Assembly: GCA_030616165.1 (NCBI GenBank)
Contig: JAUWXV010000240.1
Coordinates: 1 to 5,563 of the forward strand
Direction of reading: 5' to 3'
Length of the DNA stretch: 5,563 nt
Origin: a bacterium
GTDB taxonomy: Bacteria > SM23-31 > JAUVVT01
In this document: positions 136-5,485 of the stretch, piece by piece
How positions within the stretch are numbered: the stretch's first letter is position 1
Layout: each line of letters opens with the position of its first letter
Notes under the pieces: model-generated
The model's input: the letters and a program-made list of their open reading frames with translations, nothing else
Database searches by the model: none
Told to the model about the DNA's origin: nothing
Program-made: the position numbers and the translations under genes

Positions 136-240
136 ATTTAATTTTATTAGAAAAAAAATTAGAAAAAATTTATTATTAAGAATAAAAAAAATACATTACT
201 AATATAAAAAATATTTTAGTTTACATAACACCGACCTTGC

Positions 241-298
241 CAATTCTTGCCACTTTTGGTGTTAAATGGTGGCTTTCGTGACTTTGGTAGCACTATAA
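241..298 (+). repeat. Left copy of inverted repeat with 10-bp periodic GGTG units
   Basis: This stretch falls into about 10-bp units: TTGCCAATTC (237-246), TTGCCACTTT (247-256), TGGTGTTAAA (257-266), TGGTGGCTTT (267-276), CGTGACTTT (277-285) and GGTAGCACTA (286-295). It aligns with the reverse complement of 789-847. The best block is GGTGTTAAATGGTGGC (258-273) against GGTGCTAAATGGTGTC on the minus strand, 14 of 16 identical. Similarity extends outward through CAATnnTTGyCA and inward to a shared TATAA. Overall identity by eye is about 70%. Repeats phased near one helical turn suggest a row of protein-binding sites such as recombinase arm sites, but that is inference. Confidence 0.55.
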
Positions 299-370
299 GG
301 AAAGTGATGTAAGTTCAGCAGCCATACGCAGTTAAGTTGATTATTATAGAGTTACAATATTGTTTAAAAA

Positions 371-418
371 TGGTAGAGCATCTGACTCTTAATCAGATGG
401 TCTGAGTTAGACTTTAAC
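371..418 (+). pseudogene. Degenerate tRNA-Lys(CTT) fragment
   Basis: GGTAGAGCA (372-380) matches the 3' side of a tRNA D arm. It is followed by a perfect anticodon stem, TCTGA (381-385) with TCAGA (393-397), around loop CTCTTAA with anticodon CTT at 388-390, as in bacterial tRNA-Lys. A variable loop TGGT and a T-loop-like TTAGACT (407-413) follow, but the T stem no longer pairs. The 5' acceptor strand, the GCTC half of the D stem, the 3' acceptor strand and CCA are all missing, so this cannot be a working tRNA. It lies about 70 nt downstream of the 241-298 repeat. Confidence 0.7.
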
Positions 419-568
419 TTATAAGTAAATTGATGAATAATCTAAAATTGGAAATATAAAATAGAAATTACGTAAAGTAAAAAGAGGAAATAAAAAAATA
501 AATTATTTATTAAGATTGTTTTCAAAATTGCCAACAATTTTTCATGTTACCATTATGTAACTAAACAG

Positions 569-608
569 ATACAAAAATATACAAAAATTGACCAAGATTG
601 ACTCAAGT
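569..608 (+). repeat. Short tandem array of 10-bp units
   Basis: Four consecutive 10-mers sit in phase. ATACAAAAAT occurs at 569-578 and again exactly at 579-588. TGACCAAGAT (589-598) and TGACTCAAGT (599-608) follow, differing from each other at a few positions. The spacing matches the ~10-bp phasing of the repeats at 241-298 and 789-847, but the unit sequence differs. This could be a further degraded binding-site array or simple slippage in AT-rich DNA. Confidence 0.4.
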
Positions 609-669
609 AATTAAGATTTAAAAATGGGGATAAATAGAAGATTATTAAGGTAATTATAATGTTTACAAA

Positions 670-719
670 TGGTGGGCGATATTGGACTCGAACCAGTGAC
701 CTCCTGCTTGTAAGACAGG
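670..719 (-). pseudogene. 3' half of tRNA-Val(TAC), including CCA
   Basis: Read on the minus strand from 719 down to 670, the sequence gives an anticodon stem CCTGT pairing with GCAGG (one G-T wobble) around loop CTTACAA, whose anticodon TAC is that of tRNA-Val. It continues with variable loop AGGTC, a T arm with TTCGAGT loop, acceptor strand ATCGCCC, discriminator A and encoded CCA. The T stem carries one mismatch (ACTGG against CCAAT). Homology stops exactly at the 5' edge of the anticodon stem: no D arm or GGGCGAT acceptor strand follows, only AT-rich DNA. It is therefore a truncated, non-functional remnant. A tRNA 3' half ending in CCA is the usual footprint of a tRNA-targeting integrase (established knowledge; its application here is inference). 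Confidence 0.85.
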
Positions 720-788
720 GAGGATATTTCAAAATAATTTTCGTAAATTATTAAAAAACAATCATAATAACTACATGGCCTCCACACT

Positions 789-847
789 TTATATTGCCAC
801 TAATTGGCACAATTGACACCATTTAGCACCACTGCTGACAAATATTG
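789..847 (-). repeat. Right copy of inverted repeat with 10-bp periodic GGTG units
   Basis: Read on the minus strand, this shows the consecutive units GGTGCTAAAT, GGTGTCAATT, GTGCCAATT and AGTGGCAATA, consensus roughly GGTGCCAATT, each 9 to 10 bp. It aligns with 241-298 in the opposite orientation over about 58 bp, allowing one gap. The shared outer CAATnTTTGnCA-type segment and inner TATAA then AGTG support one common origin rather than chance. It lies about 70 nt upstream of the tRNA-Val fragment on the same strand, mirroring the left copy and the tRNA-Lys fragment. Confidence 0.55.
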
Positions 848-957: not shown

Positions 958-982
958 TAGTGTTAGTTGATCATAAAGAAAG

Positions 983-987
983 AGGAG
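983..987 (+). promoter_or_regulatory. Ribosome binding site fixing the start at 996
   Basis: AGGAG lies 8 nt before ATG 996-998. It supports this start over the in-frame GTG at 960, which has no Shine-Dalgarno sequence and lies upstream of the predicted transcription start. It resembles the sites before the other two genes (AGGAG at 2370-2374 and 4344-4348). Confidence 0.8.
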
Positions 988-995
988 AAACTCAT

Positions 996-2306
996 ATGTA
1001 TAAAAATTGTAACCGCCGGGATGTCTTAAAATTCCTCACAGCAGCAGGAGCCGGTATAGTTTTGACTAAAACGGAGTCATCAAAGTCAGTTCCCCTTACC
1101 AATAAACCGGTACGTGTTGGATTTGTCGGCGTAGGAGACCGTGGGTCTTATAACCTCGATATCTGCTTAGGTATGGAAGGTGTAGAGGTCGTTGCACTTT
1201 GCGATATTAAAGACTCATATTTATATCGTGCAAAACGCTGGGTTGAGGAATCGGAACAGCCAACGCCGAAACTTTATGGAGAGAGCAGGACAGATTTTGA
1301 GCGGATGTGTGATAATGAGGATTTAGACCTTGTTGTCACTGCAACACCGTGGGAATGGCACACGCCTGTTTGTGTTGCTGCGATGAGGACCGGCAAGAAT
1401 GCTGCAAGTGAACAGCCAATTGCGATAACGGTTGATGAGTGCTGGGAATTAGTGGAGACATCTGAAAAAACTGGTAAGTTTTGTACTGTATTGAAAGAAA
1501 TAGGTGACCTTACTATTACAAATATGATACGGCAAGGTTTATTTGGTGAAATTTTGCATTGTGAAAAAGGATATGTACATGACCTCAGGCTTGTCAAGTT
1601 CGATCCTGAAAGGGAACCGTGGAGATTAAAGCATTCCGAAAACCGAAACAGCATGTTATATCCGTCAATGTATCAATTTACAACATATTTGGAACTTGGT
1701 CACGGTGACAGAATGGACTACCTGGTATCAATGAGTTCGAAATCACTGTCGATTAACGAATTTGCGGCTTTAAACTACGGTGATGACCATCCATATGCTA
1801 CAAAAAAGATGGCTTTGGGTGACTATGTAGGTACTCTCATTCATACTGCAAACGGGAAAGTGATAACTTTTCATTTTGATACAAGTACTCCCCACCCGCG
1901 ACATATTTTTCGAATGCAGGGCACCAAAGGATGTTTTATGCAAGATAGAGCAACCGGGGAACAGAGGATTTATATCGACGGGCGAAGTCCAGAACCACAC
2001 AGCTGGGAACCTGCCGATGAGTATTTTAAAGAATATGAGCACTCGTATTTGAAGACTTATAGACCAGAACCGCGCAAAGCAATACGCGGCCATGGCAGCG
2101 GCAATACTACACCTATAATGTGGCACCGGATGATTAGAGCAATCAGGGAAGGAAAGCCTATAGACCGTGATGTTTACGATTCTGTTAACTTTGCAGTCAT
2201 TCCTCCCATTTCAGAAATATCAGTAGCTAACAATAGTAAACCTGTCGAGATTCCCGATTTTACCCAAGGCAAATGGAAGACTAAACAACCTGTTGAAATT
2301 AGTTAG
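996..2306 (+). CDS. Tat-exported Gfo/Idh/MocA protein, GH109-like
   Basis: This is a 436-residue protein with an NAD(P)-binding Rossmann fold followed by an alpha/beta C-terminal domain. The N-terminus has a twin-arginine signal (NRRDVLK, residues 6-12, then hydrophobic 13-23), implying folded export with cofactor. GVGDRG (45-50) is the dinucleotide loop and CDI (69-71) ends the second strand. The usual EKP lysine of sugar dehydrogenases is Gln in EQP (139-141). RQGLFGEILHCEKGYVHDLR (179-198), DYLVSMSS (241-248), DVYDS (392-396) and PDFTQGKW (420-427) closely resemble GH109, whose alpha-N-acetylgalactosaminidases use NAD+ in an oxidation-elimination mechanism. The GGHGG loop appears as RGHGS (364-368), keeping His366. 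However, the GH109-style YPTHG segment is YPSMY (222-226), and the 'LEN..YG' region after Cys163 is shortened and changed. The activity may therefore differ; a Gfo/Idh/MocA oxidoreductase of unknown substrate is the cautious call. It starts a possible two-gene unit with the gene 75 nt downstream. Confidence 0.85.
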   Translation: MYKNCNRRDVLKFLTAAGAGIVLTKTESSKSVPLTNKPVRVGFVGVGDRGSYNLDICLGMEGVEVVALCDIKDSYLYRAKRWVEESEQPTPKLYGESRTDFERMCDNEDLDLVVTATPWEWHTPVCVAAMRTGKNAASEQPIAITVDECWELVETSEKTGKFCTVLKEIGDLTITNMIRQGLFGEILHCEKGYVHDLRLVKFDPEREPWRLKHSENRNSMLYPSMYQFTTYLELGHGDRMDYLVSMSSKSLSINEFAALNYGDDHPYATKKMALGDYVGTLIHTANGKVITFHFDTSTPHPRHIFRMQGTKGCFMQDRATGEQRIYIDGRSPEPHSWEPADEYFKEYEHSYLKTYRPEPRKAIRGHGSGNTTPIMWHRMIRAIREGKPIDRDVYDSVNFAVIPPISEISVANNSKPVEIPDFTQGKWKTKQPVEIS

Positions 2307-2381
2307 ACATCAGAATGATTTTTTTATATATGAAAATAAACTACAATAAGCATTTTGCTTTAATAATATAGGAGAATAAAG

Positions 2382-4151
2382 ATGAAAAAAAGAATATTTT
2401 TGATTTCATTTATCATATTCTTCCTTTACTTTTTAACAGTACCGCTGCTCTTGGCACAGGAACCCGAGATTCCTTATGCTGGTGAGGTACCCCTGACACC
2501 AAATGTTAGACCGATGATTATTGTTAGCGGCTCAGATTATGATATGGGTTATCAATGGTATCAACAGATTGTTCAGATTTACGGAAAAAAGCCGTGCGAG
2601 GAACTTTCACACCAAAAATTTACGGAAGACGAGCTTTCTGCTCTGAAGGCATACCAATGGTACATTAGAAAATATACGCCTGAAATGATAGAGTTACTAA
2701 AGGGTATGGTTGACGGTGCAAAAGATGCGGGCATTTTCCTGACTTATGAGCAGGTCCTGGCAAAATGGTCAGGTACAACAAAATATCCTTTTCCTGCTGG
2801 AAGTGAAAATGAGAAACTACCACCAGAGGAAGACTGTAGCGGTTGGGCTGCCTGGGGAAGAATGACAAAAGATGGAAAACTATATTGTGGTGGAAGTGGA
2901 GATCATCAAATCATAATGGGAGATAATGAGATTAGAAGTTTCGAATATTGCGTGGCTATGTTTCCAGAAAAGGGGAATAACTTTGTGTTTTCTACTTCAA
3001 CGGGATGTTGCTGGCACGTAAGTATGAATAATAAAGGCTGTGCAATGTTTCACCACGGTACCACTGGTTACTATGGGCGTTACTTGCCACCGGAAGAACA
3101 AAATTACGGTTATGGCGTGCCAAATGTTATGATAACGATACATACTCTTCGATTTGCTCAGTCTGCTAATGATGCACAAAGAATAGTGTTATCTTTGCCA
3201 AGCGGAGATGGGAGAGTCGGTGGCGCCTGGGCAGACGTAAATGGGACTGCTTTTGTTATTGAGAATAGAGATAATCCAAGAGCTATTAGAAAATCCGGTG
3301 ATTATGGTGAGAGAGATTTCATTTATAGTACAAATAATTTATTCTCAGAAGAATTGAAGGATTGTTATAAACCGCCACCCGGACAAAAGGTTATTTTTTT
3401 CCCACACGTGGGTTATTTGGGTACAGAGGGAAGTTTGGGCAGCATAGGTCGGAACTTTGAATTATGGAACTTATTCCATAACTACCCAGGTGAAGTAGAC
3501 ATAAATTTTGCTAAGATGATTTGGCGTTTTCCCGGTCCCCCACCTCCTTATGCCACCATAGACGAGGCTGTTGAAGATTATGACAGGTCTCAAGCAAGGC
3601 TTTGGAATGCACATGTTAGTCAGACAGGGAATGCAATGGTAGGTATTATGGTGCCTGACAATGGAGAGGAGGGATTATATTACGTATCTCAGGGATGCGC
3701 TGTAAGAGGTAATGACTCTCCGACTTATCCGGGTGGTGTCGTCATCCGTATTGCTCCTACTTATTCTTTTTATCAGTTAAAGCTTGATTCTAACGTTAGG
3801 AATGTTGCACGTGCAGCCAGAACTCGTACTCAATATGATTTATATAATGCATATCAGGAATTGAGTAAGCTAAGCTATGAAGATGTTCCTTATGCACCGC
3901 TAAATGCAATATTAGACCAGGCAACAACTGAGTGGCAAAAAGGTGAATATTATAGTAGAATTGCCGGAAGAAAGCAAGGAAATGAGAACATTAACTGCCT
4001 GGCAAAATCAGCAAGATCTTATTTTAGGGCTCAGGCACTTGCACTACAAGCTTATAATTCCTTAGTTCCTCCCGCGAAGTGTCCGGAAGACCTTGGTCTT
4101 AGAGAATGGTTTGGCGCATGGGGTGATTGGGATACAAGGGGTGATAATTAG
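2382..4151 (+). CDS. Secreted C45-like Ntn-hydrolase
   Basis: This is a 589-residue protein with a classic Sec signal peptide: MKKR, a hydrophobic core at residues 5-24, and likely cleavage after LLLA (25|26). The body resembles peptidase family C45 (acyl-CoA:6-APA acyltransferase-like Ntn-hydrolases). GSDYDMGYQ (50-58) fits the early 'G.....G' segment. YTPEMIELLKGMVDGAKDAGI (98-118) fits the helical 'E..G.A.gaG' segment. DCSGWAAWGRMTKDG (151-165) fits the nucleophile strand, followed by GGSGDH (170-175) and MNNKG (215-219). By family precedent Cys152 would become the N-terminal nucleophile after autocleavage at Asp151-Cys152, leaving a propeptide of about 126 residues. It would hydrolyse or transfer an amide or ester acyl group outside the cytoplasm. 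The final ~120 residues look helical and have no recognised role. About a dozen cysteines suggest possible disulfides. AGGAG (2370-2374) is 7 nt before ATG. The substrate is unknown; the family call is moderate. Confidence 0.7.
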   Translation: MKKRIFLISFIIFFLYFLTVPLLLAQEPEIPYAGEVPLTPNVRPMIIVSGSDYDMGYQWYQQIVQIYGKKPCEELSHQKFTEDELSALKAYQWYIRKYTPEMIELLKGMVDGAKDAGIFLTYEQVLAKWSGTTKYPFPAGSENEKLPPEEDCSGWAAWGRMTKDGKLYCGGSGDHQIIMGDNEIRSFEYCVAMFPEKGNNFVFSTSTGCCWHVSMNNKGCAMFHHGTTGYYGRYLPPEEQNYGYGVPNVMITIHTLRFAQSANDAQRIVLSLPSGDGRVGGAWADVNGTAFVIENRDNPRAIRKSGDYGERDFIYSTNNLFSEELKDCYKPPPGQKVIFFPHVGYLGTEGSLGSIGRNFELWNLFHNYPGEVDINFAKMIWRFPGPPPPYATIDEAVEDYDRSQARLWNAHVSQTGNAMVGIMVPDNGEEGLYYVSQGCAVRGNDSPTYPGGVVIRIAPTYSFYQLKLDSNVRNVARAARTRTQYDLYNAYQELSKLSYEDVPYAPLNAILDQATTEWQKGEYYSRIAGRKQGNENINCLAKSARSYFRAQALALQAYNSLVPPAKCPEDLGLREWFGAWGDWDTRGDN

Positions 4152-4354
4152 CTTAAGATATATTATTTTTATATAGAAATAAGAAACTTTGTAAACATAG
4201 TAGTCAGCTATTTTTTAAATTAAACATTATTAAGAAGTATATTTTTTAACTATAGTAATATTTACTTTTTTAAAAAATAAACAATATATGTTTTCCATAT
4301 AATTGAATATAAATCAATTAAAATTTAATCAATTAAAAGTAAGAGGAGAATAAT
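4152..4354 (+). promoter_or_regulatory. AT-rich spacer with -10-like box and 12-bp direct repeat
   Basis: This gap of about 200 nt between the two hydrolase genes contains no gene. A perfect TATAAT lies at 4298-4303, without a convincing -35, so a separate promoter for the downstream gene is possible but weak. AATCAATTAAAA occurs twice, at 4312-4323 and 4327-4338, a 15-bp period in the leader just ahead of the AGGAG at 4344-4348. Near its start, ATAG and CTAT flank a 7-nt loop and run into a T tract (about 4197-4217), at best a very weak terminator. Confidence 0.35.
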
Positions 4355-5485
4355 ATGAGACTGTATATTAAGAAGCCAAGTTTTATGATTATCTTTGGGG
4401 TAATATTTTCTGTCGTATTTTTTTGCACTAAAAAGGCACAGGAGAGTTCATTAAAAGATATTCGTTTGCTTGATTTTAAGCCTAAAACAATGCTTGTAGT
4501 AAAAGAAACAAAGGTTGAAAAAGCAAAGTTTCCTGTTATAGATTGTCACAATCATCTAAGAAGAGTAATTAATGCGGGTGCGGATATTGAAGAGCTGATT
4601 AAAATTATGGATGAGTGTAATGTTCAAATGGTTGTGGACCTTGACGGATATCCGGGGGGACAGTTTGAAAAGAGTTTAAGAACATTAAAGGAACCGTATT
4701 CTGATAGATTTTTGGTTTATACGAGAATTGATTGGACAAATCTTGATGACCCAGGTTTTGCTGAACAGATGGCAAAGAAAATCGAAGAAGACGTAAAGAA
4801 GGGTGCTCAGGCATTAAAAATAAGAAAAGAGTTAGGTCTTGAGATTCAGTTAGCGAATGGCACATATCTTCCTGTTGATTCTCCAAAACTGGATCCAACC
4901 TGGGAAATGTGCGGGAAACTTGGGATTCCTGTGACTATTCATGTTGCTGACCCCGTGGCATTTTTTACTCCTCTTGACAGGTTTAATGAGCGTCTTGAAG
5001 AAGTGATTGACCATCCGGACTGGATGTGGAACAGACCTGAATTATACAATGTAGAAGAAATAATGGAACAGAGAAACCGTATGTTAGCAAAACATCCTAA
5101 TACAAACTTCATTGGTGCTCATGTTGGCGGCATGTCTGAAAATCTTGCATTAGCTGCAGAATGGCTTGATACATATCCTAATCTTTATTATGATACTTCA
5201 GCGAGGATTCATGAAATTGGAAGACAACCTTATACTGCAAGAAAATTTTTAATTAAGTATCAAGATAGAATTGTTTTTGGTTCAGATGGATGTGATGCCG
5301 GTCCGATAAATGCAGAAATGTACCGACTTAATTGGAGATGGTTTGAAACTGATGATGAATACTTTGACGTCTCAAAAGCCCATCATTATCAGGGAAGGTG
5401 GATGGTTTACGGTGTTCATCTTCCTGATGAAGTCCTAAAAAAGATATATTATCAGAACGCAAAGAAATTATATCCTGGATTATAG
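4355..5485 (+). CDS. Exported amidohydrolase-family (PF04909-type) metal-dependent hydrolase
   Basis: This 376-residue protein has the TIM-barrel metal-hydrolase signature in order: IDCHNHL (62-68, HxH metal ligands His65 and His67), VTIHVADP (193-200, His196), FIGAHVGG (252-259, His256) and FGSDG (308-312, Asp311). By analogy with ACMSD-like enzymes, His65, His67, His196 and Asp311 would bind a metal such as zinc, and His256 would act in catalysis. The family covers decarboxylases and hydrolases of carboxylic or aromatic compounds, lactones and amides, so the reaction cannot be stated. The N-terminus (residues 6-23) is a hydrophobic export signal followed by Cys24-Thr-Lys-Lys. This could be a lipoprotein, but the lipobox VFFC is atypical with Phe at -1; an uncleaved anchor is the alternative. 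A linker of about 35 residues precedes the barrel. AGGAG lies 6 nt before ATG. A TAG stop ends the gene. Confidence 0.85.
   Translation: MRLYIKKPSFMIIFGVIFSVVFFCTKKAQESSLKDIRLLDFKPKTMLVVKETKVEKAKFPVIDCHNHLRRVINAGADIEELIKIMDECNVQMVVDLDGYPGGQFEKSLRTLKEPYSDRFLVYTRIDWTNLDDPGFAEQMAKKIEEDVKKGAQALKIRKELGLEIQLANGTYLPVDSPKLDPTWEMCGKLGIPVTIHVADPVAFFTPLDRFNERLEEVIDHPDWMWNRPELYNVEEIMEQRNRMLAKHPNTNFIGAHVGGMSENLALAAEWLDTYPNLYYDTSARIHEIGRQPYTARKFLIKYQDRIVFGSDGCDAGPINAEMYRLNWRWFETDDEYFDVSKAHHYQGRWMVYGVHLPDEVLKKIYYQNAKKLYPGL

Follow-up and report, generated by a model that had tools for sequence, protein, structure and literature searches.

Constant arm-like modules beside changing tRNA fragments point to two decayed ends of tRNA-targeting integrative elements

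Islands of the Islander class combine a tyrosine integrase, an intact tRNA gene, a displaced tRNA fragment and a crossover at the anticodon; the fragments are mostly 3′ ones, with 5′ fragments in 159 of 3919, tandem arrays are known, and genomes that have any such island carry 3.0 on average (PMC4383910). The tycheposons of Prochlorococcus are described in outline as cargo elements that have tRNA genes at their borders, encode a tyrosine recombinase and make use of several tRNA genes (PMC10872708), and some archaeal integrases use anticodon-loop attachment sites in which the attachment DNA overlaps the integrase gene, in some cases with the site inside the gene itself (PMC8371274). The family described here resembles the Islander class in its tyrosine integrases beside intact tRNAs, its displaced tRNA fragments and a probable crossover at the anticodon, and its features match those of tRNA-gene islands with anticodon-centred sites, a kind of element that is already known. 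It differs from the Islander class in that one genome holds many more ends than 3.0, most of them without an integrase nearby, and in that a single integrase clade serves many tRNA types in both orientations. Unlike the archaeal case, only an arm-like motif overlaps the last codons of the integrase gene (in contigs C127 and C150 and in a gene of a second genome, G001), and insertion leaves the gene unsplit.

The window is the whole 5,563-nucleotide stretch analysed, contig C69 of the source genome G000 (3.74 Mb in 343 contigs). The original prediction described two periodic arrays in inverted orientation, each followed by a tRNA fragment about 70 nt away, and the arrays do lie where it placed them, at 241–298 on the plus strand and 789–847 on the minus strand. 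Array A aligns almost gap-free with the reverse complement of 789–847 in a local alignment that scores 22, against a mean of 7.9 and a maximum of 16 for dinucleotide shuffles, and none of 2000 shuffles reaches that score. A repeat search of the window returns a 40-nt pair with 70% complementarity between the arrays, and their 10-bp periodicity stands above that of shuffled sequence, being matched by 34 of 2000 shuffles for array A and by 1 of 2000 for array B. The tRNA fragments start about 71–72 nt beyond the array ends on both sides, close to the predicted spacing. The homology is wider than was first described, extending over 185–370 on the A side and at least 731–851 on the B side, and the arrays are part of a module of ~137 bp whose 3′ edge meets a tRNA fragment that begins near the anticodon arm. 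By blastn, module A is 89% identical to a copy in C4 and 88% identical to one in C25, and module B has relatives in C237, C17, C134 and C260. Judged from its sequence, the array of module A is a probable set of integrase arm sites.

The tRNA-Lys-like sequence on the plus strand and the tRNA-Val sequence on the minus strand are both present as predicted; coordinates are collected in Table 1. The Lys-like fragment contains the anticodon arm CTGACTCTTAATCAG at 382–396 (plus strand) and is degenerate beyond it, and its tRNA score is 20, compared with 11.5 for the 95th percentile of random windows. Searches with ARAGORN and Rfam turned up neither an intact tRNA nor any Rfam RNA in the window, and a relaxed ARAGORN run returned only noise. 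The Val fragment starts at a known subsite and reaches the tRNA end, as the displaced fragments of tRNA islands do. Positions 553–719 are 93% identical over 167 nt to the intact tRNA-Val locus of C112, where the gene beside the tRNA matches PDC-S02 at 8e-76; no open frame remains in 553–618 of the window. The similarity sets in at the anticodon arm and covers the rest of the tRNA plus ~115 bp of flank, where it reaches the last codons of that gene; ahead of the arm the two loci are unlike. Because the similarity extends outward from the anticodon arm only, the comparison resembles that of an attR end with an unoccupied site. C112 and C69 may be two loci of one strain or may represent two strains within the assembly.

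Table 1. Features of the window, with related tRNA fragments, palindromes and integrase genes (C numbers are contigs of G000 unless G001 is given)
Feature	Position or contig	Strand	Basis
AT-rich leader of module A, common to several other copies	185–233	+	blast matches to C4, C293, C86 and C45 begin at 185–186; alignment of upstream regions
P-arm-like module A, periodic array about 234–300	234–370	+	model R1, 116 bits, E 3e-33 (training-set copy)
Degenerate tRNA-Lys-like fragment	371–411	+	80% over 41 nt to tRNA-Lys-CTT of C326
tRNA-Val flank with remnants of last codons of PDC-S02-type defence gene	553–669		matches flank of intact tRNA-Val, C112
tRNA-Val(TAC) 3′ fragment, from anticodon arm (704–718) to tRNA 3′ end	670–718	−	92% over 50 nt to tRNA-Val of C112
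P-arm-like module B, periodic array 789–847	731–851	−	model R1, 59.5 bits, E 1.3e-15 (training-set copy)
Three genes right of module B: GH109-like Gfo/Idh/MocA oxidoreductase, 589-aa protein, amidohydrolase	960–5485	+	
Val fragments	C4, C86, C237, window B		
Ala fragments	C25, G001:C166		
Arg fragment	C327		
Lys-like fragments	window A, C90, C17, C260, G001:C273		
Lys/Met-like hybrid fragment	C4		
Met fragment, antisense	C293		
T-arm palindrome sites	C4:261, C86:23019, C17:1328, C260:13218, C145:15738, C312:7833, C8:12163, C319:12018		
Integrase/tRNA pairs	C106 Ala-GGC, C127 Arg-CCT, C150 Met-CAT, C94 Pro-CGG		

Recurrence of the repeat next to tRNA sequence, which the prediction entailed, is found. 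A query covering 225–372, which ends at the tRNA junction, was searched in the source genome and in others; copies are present in G000 and in G001, which is from a different genus within the family of G000, and the 39 further genomes that were searched gave none. Besides those of the window, eight matches are near full length (six in G000 and two in G001), and all eight run into a tRNA fragment at a nearly constant distance. From 13 aligned modules we built a sequence-only model, R1, that leaves out the tRNA part, and with it searched six genomes of the phylum, obtaining about 12 module copies in G000 and 3 in G001. Every one of the 12 matches above 52 bits (10 in G000, 2 in G001) runs into a tRNA fragment; all were training copies, so that their scores are not independent, but the sequence after them lay outside the model. 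That sequence gives tRNA scores of 17–47 against the random-window 95th percentile of 11.5, a conservative comparison since the null windows may hold real tRNA pieces that inflate the upper percentiles. Two weaker matches, in C237 and, outside the training set, in C260, also run into tRNA fragments; a third, G001:C340, likewise held out of training, scores 11.5, just at the 95th percentile, and by eye resembles a worn Val fragment. In the remaining weak or partial matches that were tested, no tRNA follows. A module of G001 shows 94% identity to that of C25 over 145 nt, against 72% protein identity for the most similar amidohydrolases of the two genomes; such high module identity between genera fits either recent movement or strong constraint on the module sequence.

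What follows the module changes from copy to copy: tRNAs of the Lys, Val, Ala, Arg and Met types are represented, and the module itself is unchanged. When the fragments are matched to intact tRNAs, the similarity mostly starts within tRNA positions 19–31 and in many cases goes on to the 3′ end. We also note that eight tRNA fragments or copies contain a GC-rich palindrome of ~30 bp (TCCGCCnnAGGCGGATCCGCC...) in their T arm, flanked by GGTT and a CGAGTCC-like sequence; a few other copies of it (C21, C140 and C274) lie outside tRNAs, and it may be a short palindromic insertion with a preference for the T loop. Separately, extra tRNA 5′ halves that end at the anticodon loop are seen just upstream of the intact tRNA for Gly (C145:15215–15344), Lys (C326:31624–31665) and Pro (C94:4212–4248), with a terminator-like hairpin after each of those in C145 and C326.

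A recombinase was expected to neighbour some copies, and one integrase family does contain the motif with which the module opens, CTTGCCAATTCTTGCCA: it lies at the 3′ end of four related genes, all of them next to intact tRNAs. In C106 and C127 the motif lies between the integrase and the tRNA 3′ end, and in C150 and C94 it is on the 5′ side of the tRNA, Met-CAT and Pro-CGG respectively, that the integrase lies. The motif falls within the last codons of the integrase genes of C127, C150 and G001. The three full-length integrases are 55–65% identical to one another and only about 25% identical over their length to known phage and plasmid integrases. A gene for a small HTH-type protein precedes each integrase; two of these proteins were tested and gave matches to HTH_17 and weak ones to excisionase families. 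Relatives in G001 and G002 adjoin tRNA-Met-CAT and tRNA-Asn-GTT. No integrase relatives were confirmed in viral contigs and module A was found in no phage record; two matches to the 18-mer in viral contigs resemble chance, and no intact tRNA was found there. Both this group of integrases and its distribution across many tRNAs seem to be new.

Two pairs of contigs fit the two ends of single islands. C127 has an intact tRNA-Arg-CCT and an integrase, and C327 has a module and a 3′ fragment of tRNA-Arg-CCT with full identity over 47 nt. C150 has an integrase and an intact tRNA-Met, and C293 has a module and, in antisense, the 5′ part of the same tRNA, shortened by a small internal deletion. The pairing of C127 with C327 (Arg-CCT) and of C150 with C293 (Met-CAT) is suggested by tRNA identity, not physical linkage, and no contig was found to hold a complete element with module, integrase and intact tRNA. 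A TATAAT-like sequence lies just past the tRNA 5′ part of C293, as if a native promoter had been displaced. Two points refine the original reading: the junction is at the anticodon arm, and some family members are inserted in reverse and displace the 5′ half. A candidate for the empty tRNA-Arg site, traced through the genes flanking C127 and C327, was set aside as weak support: in G002 a CRP-like gene adjoins tRNA-Arg-CCT and the next gene follows after ~28 bp, and the far side mismatches C327.

Together, the constant module, the varying tRNA, the motif at the integrases, the split pairs and the match between the window's Val fragment and C112 lead us to interpret the window, with high confidence, as the decayed remains of two integrative elements that belong to one family and target tRNA genes, each represented by its distal (attR-side) end. 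That two ends of one family had landed in different tRNA genes and then decayed was among the readings originally offered, and it is the one best supported by the recurrence, the nearly fixed tRNA distance, the integrase motif and the shuffle test. In the mechanism we propose, each element end would consist of a P-arm-like module, whose ~10-bp repeats are probably bound by integrase, and the displaced 3′ part of the target tRNA ~70 nt further on. A tyrosine integrase of the C106/C127/C150/C94 lineage would bind arm sites on both sides of attP, the shared one being TTGCCAATTCTTGCCA, and strand exchange would take place in the anticodon loop, presumably with the anticodon stem as the core inverted repeat. 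The element would bring a replacement tRNA half and the original half would stay at the far end. Element A, on the left, would have occupied a tRNA-Lys-like site and element B, on the right, tRNA-Val(TAC), both having once moved as complete islands.

The same data can be read, as the original prediction also allowed, in terms of small non-autonomous elements that consist of an attachment site, cargo and little more and are moved in trans by integrases elsewhere in the genome. G000 holds at least ten modules with tRNA fragments and only four clade integrases, so that many of these ten or more distal ends have no partner, and the module-bearing contigs C237 (30,950 bases) and C4 (15,759 bases) lack both a clade integrase and an intact tRNA. 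Decayed autonomous islands would look alike, however, the contigs are too short to bound elements, and C127/C327 and C150/C293 fit autonomous islands; we regard such elements as an unlikely explanation of the window. A broader proposal is advanced tentatively, as a rather unlikely conjecture: a single integrase family specific to the lineage would use the anticodon loops of many tRNA genes in both orientations, restoring either tRNA half (3′ or 5′), and would also mobilise in trans a more numerous group of islands that have its attachment module and no integrase.

It is very improbable that the modules are transposon- or SINE-like repeats in which the tRNA piece is part of a fixed unit. Non-coding sequence is indeed dispersed in copies with a tRNA piece attached, but the tRNA part varies while the module stays, the fragments begin near the anticodon and many reach the tRNA 3′ end, and integrases with the same motif sit at intact tRNAs. 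Nor do the copies behave as a MITE or transposon-like unit copied whole, as they share one side only and the tRNA side changes. Chance similarity of AT-rich sequence, to which arms only about 70% complementary in the window might be ascribed, is scarcely credible given the shuffle result, and the recurrence with tRNA fragments already refutes it.

With the window read as two decayed distal ends, the genes to the right of module B are possible cargo of element B, as their position suggests. The 589-aa protein (2382–4151) matches nothing in Pfam; the single relative found among the collected genomes (61%) is on an Acidobacteria MAG contig, where a second copy is encoded next to it. On the other side, the last 115 bases of C31 are identical to the window start and a C31 reading frame continues into the window, so C31 very probably lies to its left. 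The window has no integrase of the clade, and C31 carries a 189-aa tyrosine recombinase of a different type that comprises the catalytic domain only. At C173:23477–23950 (L144) an intact tRNA-Leu-CAG is followed by a short open frame, presumably that of a GIY-YIG-like endonuclease, and then by a 98% tRNA-Leu 3′ fragment, a possible tRNA-associated element of ~400 bp. At C21:13227–17411 (L137) a single contig holds a complete tRNA island of ~4.1 kb that lacks the present module; it consists of an intact tRNA-Met, three genes, what remains of an integrase and a 3′ fragment of tRNA-Met (98%).

On this reading the symmetric layout of the window calls for no new mechanism. The sites form a natural series within one small phylum, with one integrase lineage at Ala, Arg, Met, Pro and Asn tRNAs and modules of the same family at Lys and Val fragments, in both orientations, and this series bears on how tRNA-targeting integrases change targets. 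A conserved module next to a tRNA fragment can also expose old island ends that have no integrase.
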